64,000 nucleotides of DNA from Nitrospirota bacterium. Its GTDB lineage: Bacteria > Nitrospirota > Thermodesulfovibrionia > Thermodesulfovibrionales > Dissulfurispiraceae. Position 1 is the stretch's first letter, and the number at the start of each line of letters is the position of its first letter. The DNA lies in contig JAJYXI010000002.1 of assembly GCA_021791055.1 (NCBI GenBank), forward strand, positions 74,229 to 138,228. Direction: 5' to 3'. Made by a program: the position numbers and the translations under genes. The notes beneath the pieces are model-generated. The model was not told the DNA's origin. It was given only the letters and a program-made list of their open reading frames with translations, and ran no database searches. Positions 13,087-64,000 of this stretch are shown here, in pieces.

Positions 13087-14436
13087 TCAGCCGATCCCAT
13101 ATTCCTTTATCTTATTAAGAAGGGTTTTATAGCTGACCTTTAAAATCTCTGCTGCCCTGCTTTTATTTCCATATGTTTGTCTAAGGGCATTTTCTATTCT
13201 TGACTTCTCGGCAGATCTTGCTGCGGATTCTGCGACCTCATGCAAAGGAGCGTCTAAATTAATCCTTTCCTTCACATCCGTGCCAAAACTCAGATGTTCA
13301 GGCAAAAGGGCTGCGCCATCGCATAGAATAACAGCCCTTTCTATCACATTTTTCAGTTCCCTTACATTACCCTTCCATTCATTGTTTAAAAGAATTCTTT
13401 CTACCTCTGGTGAGATTAAAGGCTCATTTTTATTCATCTCTTTAGAAAACTGTGAAACAAAATAGCGTGCAAGAGGAATAATGTCTTCCCTCCTCTCCCT
13501 CAATGGCGGTATAACTATGGGAAACACATTCAGCCTATAAAACAGGTCTTCCCTGAAGCAGCCTTCAGCAACCTCTTTTTCAAGATTCTTGTTGCTTGCT
13601 GCAATTACCCTTACATCAACCCTTATAGTCTTAGTGCCGCCTACCCTTTCAAACTCGTTTTCCTGAAGCACCCTTAAGAGTTTAGATTGCAATGGCATTT
13701 CCATATCACCTATTTCATCCAGAAAAATCGTGCCTTTATCTGCGAGTTCAAACCTGCCGGGCTTTGTTTCGCCTGCGCCTGTAAATGCGCCTTTTTCATG
13801 CCCGAATATTTCGTTTTCTATTAAATCTTTGGGGATTGCTGCACAATTAACAGCCACAAAGGGATCCTTTGACCTCTGGCTCAGGTGGTGGATTGTCCTT
13901 GCTATGAGCTCCTTTCCAGTGCCGCTCTCACCTAAGATTAAAACAGTGGTTTTAAGGGATGCTACTTTTCTTGCCTTTTCCATCACTTCATTCCATGTCT
14001 TGCTGACTCCAACCATCTCAGGCATTTTTAGAAATCTATGAAATTCTTTCTTCAGGATGAGATTTTCTTTTTCAATGGTTCTCTCTGCCAATGCCCTTTT
14101 GGCTATAAGCAAAAGATGGTCGGGGTCAAAGGGCTTGGTGATAAAATCATAGGCCCCTTGTTTTACAGCCTTTACAGCAGTCTCAATACTTCCGTATGCG
14201 GTCATTACAATTACAGGGATAAGAGGGAAACTCTCTTTCGCCGCCTTAAGGATTTCCATACCATTGCCGTCAGGTAGTTTCAGGTCTGTAACTACTGCGC
14301 TCAAATCTGATGAAAGCAACGAAACACCATCCTTAACAGTATATGCTGCCTTGACGCTAAAGCCTTCGGACTGAAAGGCTTTAGTCAGCATGTCTGACAT
14401 GCTCTTTTTATCTTCTACTATCAGGATTGTTTGCAT
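13087..14436 (-). CDS. Sigma54-dependent NtrC-family response regulator (PilR-like)
   Basis: Receiver domain, GESGTGKELIARTIHHLSQR, GAFTGA loop, C-terminal Fis HTH. Confidence 0.93.
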   Translation of the reverse strand: MQTILIVEDKKSMSDMLTKAFQSEGFSVKAAYTVKDGVSLLSSDLSAVVTDLKLPDGNGMEILKAAKESFPLIPVIVMTAYGSIETAVKAVKQGAYDFITKPFDPDHLLLIAKRALAERTIEKENLILKKEFHRFLKMPEMVGVSKTWNEVMEKARKVASLKTTVLILGESGTGKELIARTIHHLSQRSKDPFVAVNCAAIPKDLIENEIFGHEKGAFTGAGETKPGRFELADKGTIFLDEIGDMEMPLQSKLLRVLQENEFERVGGTKTIRVDVRVIAASNKNLEKEVAEGCFREDLFYRLNVFPIVIPPLRERREDIIPLARYFVSQFSKEMNKNEPLISPEVERILLNNEWKGNVRELKNVIERAVILCDGAALLPEHLSFGTDVKERINLDAPLHEVAESAARSAEKSRIENALRQTYGNKSRAAEILKVSYKTLLNKIKEYGIG

Positions 14437-14438
14437 AG

Positions 14439-15305
14439 TCAGTCGTTCGGTAAGAAGATGCGAAAAGTGCTGCCTTTTCCCTCTATGCTCTCCACACTAA
14501 TATTACCACCGTGCCCCATCACTATCTTTTGCACAAGGGCTAATCCAATTCCTGAGCCTCCATCCTTTGTCGTATAAAATGGCATGAATATCCTGTTTAA
14601 ATCCTCTTCAGGTATACCCCTGCCATTGTCTTTGACATCGATAAATACACCATCTCTGTCTAAATGAATACCCCTCTCTATATTTATCCATACTTTCTCG
14701 CCGGCATCAAGGGCATTATGGATAAGATTCCTTATTGCCTGCTTTATCAGGGGCTCATCCGCCTTGATTACAACATCATCGTTAAAAGAAAAATTTATCT
14801 TGTGTCCGGACTCTCCCATTCCTTGAATTACATCCCTGATAGAGCTTGTCAGGTTTGTATCGGCTTTTTTCATCGGCTCTGACTTCGAGAATTTAAGCAG
14901 CTCCTCCATGACGAGATTCATTTCGCTGATTTCATTGATAATGTTCTGAACAATCTCTCTTCTGCTGTCGTTTTCGTCAAGACTTTTCAGGAGAAGCCTT
15001 GCATAGCCGACTATAACGCCCATAGGATTCCTGAATTCATGTGCAATCCCTGCAGACATCTCTCCGAGCGCAGCGAATCTCTCCTTTATTACAAGCTGGT
15101 CTTTGAGGGATTTTATTTCATCTCCGAGGGCCCGGAATGCATTTACAACGGTATTTATCTCCGCACTTTCTGTTTTTGCTTCTTCCTTCTTCAAAAGGCG
15201 GGGCAGGAATATTGCAACAATAAAGAGTAATATTAGAAATACCGAGGCTGTTAAGAAAATAATGAGGCTTTCCGGGGATGTTTTCATGTAATCGTTCACT
15301 GGCAA
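14439..15305 (-). CDS. Sensor histidine kinase (PilS-like)
   Basis: AALGEMSAGIAHEFRNPMGVIVGYARLL H-box; GSGIGLALVQKIV. TTG start at 15305 or ATG at 15287. Confidence 0.9.
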   Translation of the reverse strand: MPVNDYMKTSPESLIIFLTASVFLILLFIVAIFLPRLLKKEEAKTESAEINTVVNAFRALGDEIKSLKDQLVIKERFAALGEMSAGIAHEFRNPMGVIVGYARLLLKSLDENDSRREIVQNIINEISEMNLVMEELLKFSKSEPMKKADTNLTSSIRDVIQGMGESGHKINFSFNDDVVIKADEPLIKQAIRNLIHNALDAGEKVWINIERGIHLDRDGVFIDVKDNGRGIPEEDLNRIFMPFYTTKDGGSGIGLALVQKIVMGHGGNISVESIEGKGSTFRIFLPND

Positions 15306-15349
15306 ATGACAGGCAGGTGTCGTATAAAGTCAATCACCTGCCTGTCATT
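15305..15349. repeat. Perfect 15-bp inverted repeat AATGACAGGCAGGTG...CACCTGCCTGTCATT
   Basis: Both arms read directly; spans the dsb gene stop and the histidine kinase start. Confidence 0.85.
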
Positions 15350-16142
15350 CGCCTTTCCTGTTAATCATCTCTATGAGTTTATCTGCAGGCATTGCTCCGG
15401 AATAAATCTTGCCATCGGGCATTATCATTGTAGGGGTGCCTGTAATACCAAGGGATTCGGCCAGTTTTATATTATTATCTATTTCCTTTGTGTCACAATC
15501 GGTTTTAGGAATAGGTTTATTTTCAAAATTGTCTTCAAGCATATTTAAAGATTTGTTGCATACAATACTTTTGGATTTCCAGTATGCATCCTTATGCATC
15601 TTTAACGGAAATAGTTTTATATAAAAAACAATATCTTTTCTCTTTTCTAAAACCTTCTTCATCTCCTGATGAAGTTTCCCGCAGTACGGTCAATCGGGGT
15701 CTGTAAATACAATCACCTTTTTGGCCGCACTGGCGTTGCCCATGACCAATGCATTGTTCAACGGTATCTTCGAGAAATTAGTCTTCCCCAAGGGGATTTT
15801 CTGGACACTTTCCGCTGTTTTATTCGCACCTGTGCTTACCTCGATTATCGGGCCTGGCAGGATATACTTTTTGGAGAAATCTACATAAAACATGCCCTTT
15901 TTTCCATTGTCGTCTATGGATATTTCCCAAAGGCTCTTTACAGGACTCATCTGGATGTTTAAAACCTTCGCATGGGAAAGGTTCATCTTTTTAAGTATGC
16001 CGCTAACCTCCTGTTTGTTTAACGAATGGCATTTTCTGCAATCTCCCTCGCAGCCGCTGCTGCTAAAGGCATTTGCGATGTTTAAATCGAAATGCGGGAA
16101 CAAAAAATAGAAAGCAAATATAAGTGTCAATATAAATCTCAT
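15345..16142 (-). CDS. DsbC/DsbG-like thiol:disulfide oxidoreductase, candidate selenoprotein (TGA at 15690-15692 read as Sec; UPYC active site); N-terminal CxxCH motif
   Basis: ORFs 15690-16142 and 15345-15662 are in the same frame, separated only by TGA plus 9 sense codons: ...KKVIVFTDPD-U-PYCGKLHQE-MKKVLEKRKD... Confidence 0.85.
15657..15674 (-). promoter_or_regulatory. Putative bacterial SECIS hairpin CTTCATC-AGGA-GATGAAG
   Basis: 7-bp perfect stem, AGGA loop, loop begins 22 nt after the TGA. Confidence 0.75.
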
Positions 16143-36374: not shown

Positions 36375-37703
36375 TCAGGATTGCTGTTTTTTTAGAATCT
36401 TCCTGATTTCAGAAAGTCCTATATATGACAAGGATGTCTCAAAAACAAACCCTCTAAAGTCAAAAAATCCCTTTCTCTCAAGCTCCGCGAGATGCGGGAA
36501 ATCGTAAAATCTTGGAAGAAGCTCATACGCCTTTTCCATAAATTGTTTTGCATTTTCCATATCGCCATTTTTGAAACTTACAATGGCAAGCAGTCCGTAA
36601 ATATTGCCCTTCTGCACATTCGGGCTCTCTTCGTTAAAGTCCGACCTCAGGCATTCAAAAAGCAATCCCTTTCCTCCTGCTATATCGCCTTTGTCTATTA
36701 ATCTAAATGCTTCAAGAAATTTTATCACGCTATATTCCGGTATTGTTTCATTTATTACGGCCATTGCGGATTCATAGGAAAGACTTCCACTCTTATACTT
36801 TTCGAATGCAGAGTAACACTTGCTGTATCTGGAAACAAAATCTACAATAGCCGGAAAGTCATCCTTAAACTGCATCTTCTTTGCTTCGCTCTTTTTAGCT
36901 ATCACCCGCATATTCATGCAGTAGCCGCCGTATTCGAAGTGTAAAACCTCAAAACCTGTTATATTCAGCAGATTTTTGATACTATTGGGGCTGAAGGTAA
37001 ACAGATGGGCATTGGAAAAGAAAGTTAATACCGATTTATGAGGCTTAAAAATATCAGGAACCTCAATCAATACTATGCCGTCGTCTTTGAGCAATCCCCT
37101 TATTTTCAGAAGCGCCTTTTTGGGGTGGGGAAAATGCTCGAGGGCATCGCAGATTGTAATAATATCAAACTTTATATCCGTCTTAAGATCTTCAAATGGA
37201 ACCCTGAATATTGTATCTATTCCAAACAGTTTATTTGTATAATCTGCAAACTGAGATAGCTCAACTCCATAAGCATTACAGCCCTTTTCTTTTAAATAGG
37301 CAGGCAAAGCGCCGAGGGACGAGCCGATATCGAGGGTATTAATGCCTTTTTTCAGGTATACAAGCCTTTCCAAAAAATCATATCTAACAACAGCATTGTA
37401 GATTTCAATGCCGAGATGCAGATTTGGGAAAGGCAATTTCCATGACTCACTTTTTTCTCCGGCGGTAAATTCTTCCCTGTATTGCCGTTTATAAAATTCT
37501 ACCGTCTCTTCATCGGTCATTCTCGGATTGATATAAGCAAGACCGCAGGACTTGCAGCATACATTTCGGTAATTAACAGGAACGCCGTCAGAAAAAAGGA
37601 TTCGCCCTTCCTTTTTCCAGTTATACTTTTCGCACAGCCACAGTTTATCCAAAAGCAGATCATATTCGGCTGAACCGCATATCTCACAGGCAACATCTTC
37701 CAT
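36375..37703 (-). CDS. Class I SAM methyltransferase with N-terminal zinc-binding segment and TPR-like C-terminus
   Basis: CEICGSAEYDLLLDK; LDIGSSLGALPAYLKEKGCNAYGVE; ICDALEHFPHPKKAL. Confidence 0.82.
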   Translation of the reverse strand: MEDVACEICGSAEYDLLLDKLWLCEKYNWKKEGRILFSDGVPVNYRNVCCKSCGLAYINPRMTDEETVEFYKRQYREEFTAGEKSESWKLPFPNLHLGIEIYNAVVRYDFLERLVYLKKGINTLDIGSSLGALPAYLKEKGCNAYGVELSQFADYTNKLFGIDTIFRVPFEDLKTDIKFDIITICDALEHFPHPKKALLKIRGLLKDDGIVLIEVPDIFKPHKSVLTFFSNAHLFTFSPNSIKNLLNITGFEVLHFEYGGYCMNMRVIAKKSEAKKMQFKDDFPAIVDFVSRYSKCYSAFEKYKSGSLSYESAMAVINETIPEYSVIKFLEAFRLIDKGDIAGGKGLLFECLRSDFNEESPNVQKGNIYGLLAIVSFKNGDMENAKQFMEKAYELLPRFYDFPHLAELERKGFFDFRGFVFETSLSYIGLSEIRKILKKQQS

Positions 37704-63669: not shown

Positions 63670-63883
63670 AAATTAACTATCCTCCTTTCTTGTCTTTAAA
63701 AGACGGGACCCAACAAGGCTTGAAAATACCGTTTCAATTTTAGCATATTTCAGCCTTGCTGGTTATTCTGATAGATATTACTTCTATATTTCGGCATCAT
63801 TTACCGCAAGGCAATATTGCGATTGGAAAGAATCTCAATTTTGAAGTGAAAGTCTCATTGAGATTTCACTTCCGTTGGTAGTG

Positions 63884-64000
63884 TCAAGATTTATGTGTAA
63901 ATTCTTTTAAGGGTTTTCTTCCCCATGTATCATTCAAGTGGCTCATAACAGCATAGACTATCCTTTCAATGCTTTCAGTGTTATTGAAGCAACTCATCGG
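63884..64000 (-). mobile_element. C-terminal fragment of a transposase-like ORF (SCFNNTESIERIVYAVMSHLNDTWGRKPLKEFTHKS*), IS256-like, cut by the right window edge
   Basis: Manual translation; resembles IS256-type C-termini (SIERI-YA---LN--W--KPLKEFTQ) from memory; flanked by an inverted repeat at about 63844-63871. Confidence 0.45.

Follow-up and report, generated by a model that had tools for sequence, protein, structure and literature searches.

An in-frame UGA in a DsbC-like gene of Nitrospirota is most probably decoded as selenocysteine at a disulfide-exchange active site

Results

A single reading frame with UGA at the active site

On the minus strand of the window (the whole 64,000-nucleotide stretch of Nitrospirota DNA analysed here), two open reading frames, 15690-16142 (150 aa) and 15345-15662, are split by a TGA codon, which raises the question of whether they represent two genes, one broken gene or one gene whose UGA is translated. 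The apparently broken gene is almost certainly intact, and its stop codon would be decoded as selenocysteine (Sec, U) in the catalytic motif of a protein that exchanges disulfides in the periplasm. In the favored reading, to which we assign a probability of about 0.93, the locus is one gene, whose exported product is a DsbC-like thiol:disulfide exchange protein with Sec in place of the nucleophilic active-site Cys (UPYC). The features of the locus are collected in Table 1.

Table 1 Features of the locus and of the predicted protein, with window coordinates.
Feature	Position	Strand	Details
Predicted selenoprotein gene, whole	15345..16142	-	265 residues including one internal UGA; ATG at 16142
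In-frame UGA, predicted selenocysteine, residue 151	15690..15692	-	First position of the UPYC active site
Predicted SECIS hairpin, CTTCATC-AGGA-GATGAAG	15657..15674	-	16-33 nt past the UGA
N-terminal C-x3-C-x2-C-H, residues 31-39	16026..16052	-	Conserved in alignments; CxxCH, haem-c-like, at 35-39
DsbC_N (dimerisation) domain, residues 50-109	15816..15995	-	PF10411, E 4e-7, 30.0 bits (cut-off 25)
Thioredoxin_2 catalytic domain with UPYC, residues 140-259	15366..15725	-	PF13098, E 1e-20, 74.4 bits (cut-off 27)
Sensor histidine kinase (HisKA, HATPase_c)	14439..15287	-	Next gene, same direction
Sigma-54 dependent NtrC-type response regulator	13087..14436	-	Same order in relatives

In agreement with the initial annotation, which had placed both open reading frames in one minus-strand frame, read-through translation of 15345-16142 yields one frame of 265 codons with a sole in-frame TGA at 15692-15690. 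The 265-aa product reads ...KKVIVFTDPD-U-PYCGKLHQEMKKV... and ends at a terminal TGA (15347-15345), and an AAGGAGG sequence is found upstream of the ATG start. In a thioredoxin-fold CxxC motif (here FTDPD-U-PYC), the internal TGA occupies the position at which the first Cys would be expected. Elsewhere in the window, at 36375 and 58844 on the minus strand, two further pairs of long frames are joined across a single TGA and most likely correspond to neighbouring genes.

Exchange of Sec and Cys among homologues

Homologues were searched for in 60 genomes, comprising that of the organism itself and those of relatives. They were recovered from 55 of these, including a UGA-containing homologue in each of the three other genomes of the genus. 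The matching records derive from uncultured Nitrospirota, many of them Thermodesulfovibrionales, and the Cys homologues also include sequences from Desulfuromonadales/Geobacteraceae and Syntrophaceae. Every recovered sequence that has the motif carries either U or Cys at the active-site column, as anticipated from the proposal that the TGA replaces the first active-site Cys of a Dsb-type CxxC. Of the homologue records, 95, representing 88 distinct sequences, have a Cys codon (UGC/UGU) here, and these include orthologues at the same chromosomal place. Over the remainder of the span the homologues are open, such that relatives show neither a TGA at a non-Cys column nor multiple other disruptions.

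The shared chromosomal place is defined by scpB on one flank and by the sensor kinase followed by the NtrC-type regulator on the other, and it is occupied by UGA versions at loci L105, L106 and L113 and by a Cys version at L111. Neighbouring scpB and kinase genes are also found beside the Cys version at L107. In a quick tree of 131 sequences, at least 16 changes of the Sec/Cys label are required, 7 of which are forced by well supported branches; these counts do not distinguish gain from loss of Sec. Because Sec and Cys versions share a chromosomal place in close relatives, and because at least seven Sec/Cys changes are forced, this family offers a good natural experiment on the use of Sec in bacterial periplasmic disulfide exchange.

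To compare the region past the hairpin described below, the gene was aligned with two UGA orthologues of the same genus. Relative to L028 (genome G001), changes at the first, second and third codon positions number 4, 1 and 24, and relative to L029 they number 3, 2 and 30. This predominance of third-position changes indicates that the stretch past the UGA is translated in frame and constrained. The 36 nt directly past the UGA are unchanged in both orthologues. Two variants of the family were also observed: a paralogue with a UPFS motif (L210:613-660), in which the UGA and SECIS are retained and the resolving Cys is replaced by Ser, and a locus (L052) at which the gene is present in two tandem copies, one with UGA and one with Cys.

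A SECIS hairpin that accompanies the UGA

The sequence past the TGA contains the 18-base hairpin that had been described initially, and its perfect 7-bp stem and AGGA loop were both recovered. The hairpin starts after 15 nt and its loop begins after 22 nt. Its loop sequence (AGGA), stem length (7 bp), spacing (22 nt) and predicted ΔG (−11.9 kcal/mol) all agree with the four published criteria for bacterial SECIS elements (PMC13188914). The hairpin exceeds chance expectation: among random synonymous recodings of the same peptide, an equal or lower ΔG arises in 0.75% and all seven pairs arise in 4.9%. The comparative evidence is far stronger than these recoding statistics: the complete hairpin, CTTCATC-NGGN-GATGAAG, is present in 39 of 40 distinct UGA sequences vs 3 of 88 distinct Cys sequences. 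Counted by records rather than by distinct sequences, the Leu codon of the hairpin is CTT in 49/49 UGA versions vs 23/72 Cys versions, and the Lys codon is AAG in 49/49 vs 36/84. Third positions in the hairpin codons thus do not vary among UGA versions but are free in the Cys versions. In two UGA versions (L054 and L190), a compensatory change from a T-A to a C-G pair maintains the stem; the other six of the seven pairs are invariant and are therefore uninformative on covariation either way.

An ordinary pseudogene, created by a sequencing error or by a nonsense mutation in a Cys gene, would fit a frame in which one TGA is the sole disruption. This explanation was rejected and is considered negligibly probable, since at least one homologue with a TGA at the same column is found in 35 of the 60 genomes, purifying selection extends past the TGA, and the UGA-linked hairpin is absent from nearly all Cys versions. 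The recurrence of the UGA and the conserved SECIS likewise support the earlier view that the locus is one selenoprotein gene, neither two open reading frames nor a pseudogene.

Two Cys-codon homologues (L134:2028-2078 and L215:712-762) retain an intact CTTCATC/GATGAAG hairpin. In L134, the 48 nt past the codon are identical to those of the UGA genes L186 and L189, with TGC instead of TGA. Judged from their sequences, both probably represent recent replacements of Sec by Cys.

Selenocysteine machinery and the missing tRNA-Sec

The genome assembly of the organism (G000) comprises 2.55 Mb in 87 contigs and is 99.75% complete. The initial annotation had proposed a search for selA, selB, selC (tRNA-Sec) and selD, and had held that lack of selB or tRNA-Sec would refute the selenoprotein reading. 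The three protein genes were found: selA on contig C39 (633 bits), selB on C64 (381 bits, with SelB winged-helix domains) and selD on C28 (329 bits, with one in-frame TGA). A canonical tRNA-Sec is absent from the draft assembly but present in near relatives. An RF01852 search of the assembly returned no clear tRNA-Sec, the best matches being tRNA-Ser and a tRNA-Cys-like gene, and a pattern search for a tRNA-Sec with a UCA anticodon gave a single chance match. Additionally, fdhA was located on C49 (886 bits, one in-frame TGA). The selD and fdhA genes, together with another fdhA-like gene (L224, L227 and L232), each have one in-frame TGA and are further selenoprotein candidates in this genome.

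A tRNA-Sec of about 94 nt scoring above 60 bits is found in 49 of the 60 genomes, and those of the same-genus genomes G001 and G002 have the anticodon UCA. Over the 60 genomes, the association between UGA homologues and tRNA-Sec is not significant (Fisher test, p = 0.17; 31/18 vs 4/7). The UGA genes that lack a clear tRNA-Sec belong to four genomes with fragmented assemblies (G000, G003, G006 and G021), and a contig break is seen in G000 and G003. In G001, the tRNA-Sec gene sits between two blocks, one located on contig C5 and the other on contig C27 of G000. Contig C27 terminates in an IS, no more than a few hundred bases from where the tRNA-Sec gene would be expected. Given this break in a multi-copy IS and the presence of tRNA-Sec in most of the genomes searched, including two of the same genus, the tRNA-Sec is most likely missing owing to an assembly gap.

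A real loss of tRNA-Sec through the IS is also possible. The gene would then be a selenoprotein gene by descent and a young pseudogene at present, with its UGA terminating translation, as the missing tRNA-Sec and the IS at its expected place could suggest. However, the same IS occurs at 15 places in the assembly, every one at a contig end, so the assembly breaks there regardless; no decay is seen in selA, selB, selD, fdhA or the SECIS, each of which is intact; and the same-genus genome G003 also lacks tRNA-Sec, its contig ending at that place. Loss is accordingly regarded as unlikely. A copy of this IS also forms the end of contig C19 within the window (63877-64000).

The genome encodes a second tRNA-Cys with Sec-like arms (G000:C71:61270-61392), and the UGA might be read as Cys by such a selC*-type tRNA; a UCA anticodon has been reported for some selC* tRNAs (reviewed in PMC7609411). 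The anticodon of this tRNA-Cys is GCA, however, which reads UGC/UGU and not UGA, and the relatives have a standard UCA tRNA-Sec, making decoding as Cys very improbable. The second tRNA-Cys (G000:C71:61270-61395; L002:1501-1626) has U73 and adjoins a YeeE/YedE transporter gene, and it was missed by ARAGORN. Similar genes occur at L243, L244, L245, L246 and L248. Sec-like features include an 8-bp acceptor stem, a long D-stem and, in most copies, a short D-loop; the variable arm is about 50 nt in G000. It resembles the selC* tRNA-Cys reported for Nitrospirae (PMC7609411), but its T-stem looks 5 bp long (8/5 rather than 8/4).

Domain architecture and predicted fold

Domain searches, in which Cys was substituted for U, place both PF13098 and PF10411 above the Pfam cut-offs. 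The DsbC equivalog model PRK10877 is matched at 1.6e-23 vs 2.6e-12 for DsbG. Its score of 83 bits falls far short of the equivalog cut-off of 215 bits, and the protein is therefore classed as DsbC-like rather than as a DsbC equivalog. A profile built from 21 homologues matches DsbC structures over almost the full length (4npb, 3.9e-19; 1eej, 4.9e-18). In an AlphaFold2 model (mean pLDDT 90.5), the best Foldseek matches are likewise to DsbC (4npb and 1eej, E 1e-13 to 2e-13). Over the whole chain, TM-scores are only about 0.46-0.58 with a large rmsd, as would be expected if the hinge between the domains differs, and the isolated DsbC catalytic domains 3gv1 and 9dcg superpose at 2.5 Å. Of the original DsbC/DsbG-like assignment, the DsbC part is borne out by domains, profile and fold, whereas the protein is less close to DsbG.

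Behind the hydrophobic N-terminus, the CxxCH motif at residues 35-39 is present in 41/49 UGA and 83/95 Cys homologue records. Based on its sequence, this motif could bind haem c. A tentative and rather doubtful extension of the favored reading is that the protein represents a new selenoprotein type, an isomerase of the DsbC kind with catalytic Sec plus a covalent N-terminal haem c; if true, electron transfer between cytochromes and the disulfides of proteins could take place.

Relation to known selenoproteins

UxxC thioredoxin-fold selenoproteins are already known. Predicted bacterial selenoproteins include a thiol:disulfide interchange protein (PF13098, UxxC, WP_011366075.1) and a DsbG-like protein (UxxC, NF041057) (PMC13188914, PMC9312934), and the organisms reported to have the former include Geobacter species (PMC1794560). 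Compared by domain and motif only, the present protein shares the Pfam domain and UxxC with the PF13098 family. It differs in its additional DsbC_N domain and CxxCH, and the Geobacteraceae homologues recovered here all have Cys. It is Dsb-type with UxxC like the Sargasso Sea DsbG-like selenoprotein (PMC1088965), yet it does not match profile NF041057 at E up to 1. E. coli DsbC (PRK10877; PDB 1eej), among the closest solved structures, likewise combines DsbC_N with a thioredoxin domain and a CxYC/UxYC-type site; it comes from a different phylum, has Cys in place of the Sec and lacks the extra CxxCH near the mature N-terminus. The full DsbC architecture and conserved N-terminal CxxCH are the less usual features here.

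A literature search found no paper describing this Nitrospirota family. The gene adds a well-supported, widespread selenoprotein family, common to many related uncultured Nitrospirota, whose UGA genes automatic annotation would split or truncate.

Proposed mechanism and gene neighbourhood

From the single reading frame, the UGA/Cys exchange at one column, the conserved SECIS and selA, selB and selD, all of which are apparent in the sequences, we infer that Sec is incorporated. The tRNA-Sec gene would lie in an assembly gap. SelB with Sec-tRNA-Sec would bind the hairpin, which starts 16 nt past the UGA, and Sec would be inserted during translation. As a homologue of DsbC, the exported protein should work outside the cytoplasm, where Sec151 would attack wrongly paired or oxidised disulfides in periplasmic proteins and Cys154 would serve as the resolving residue. 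The protein is predicted to dimerise and to have isomerase or reductase activity, and it may assist the folding of exported Cys-containing proteins.

The order of the gene and the kinase is also seen at L105, L106, L111, L113 and L114. Further downstream lie genes for prepilin-like proteins, for PilX and for a PilY1-like protein containing 22 Cys residues; these proteins are possible substrates, and the PilY1-like protein may be one whose folding is assisted. Comparable pilin-like genes lie downstream at L106, L111 and L113. Finally, a perfect 12-bp inverted repeat (GACAGGCAGGTG/CACCTGCCTGTC, window 15308-15346), without a T-run, overlaps the stop codon and precedes the kinase gene.
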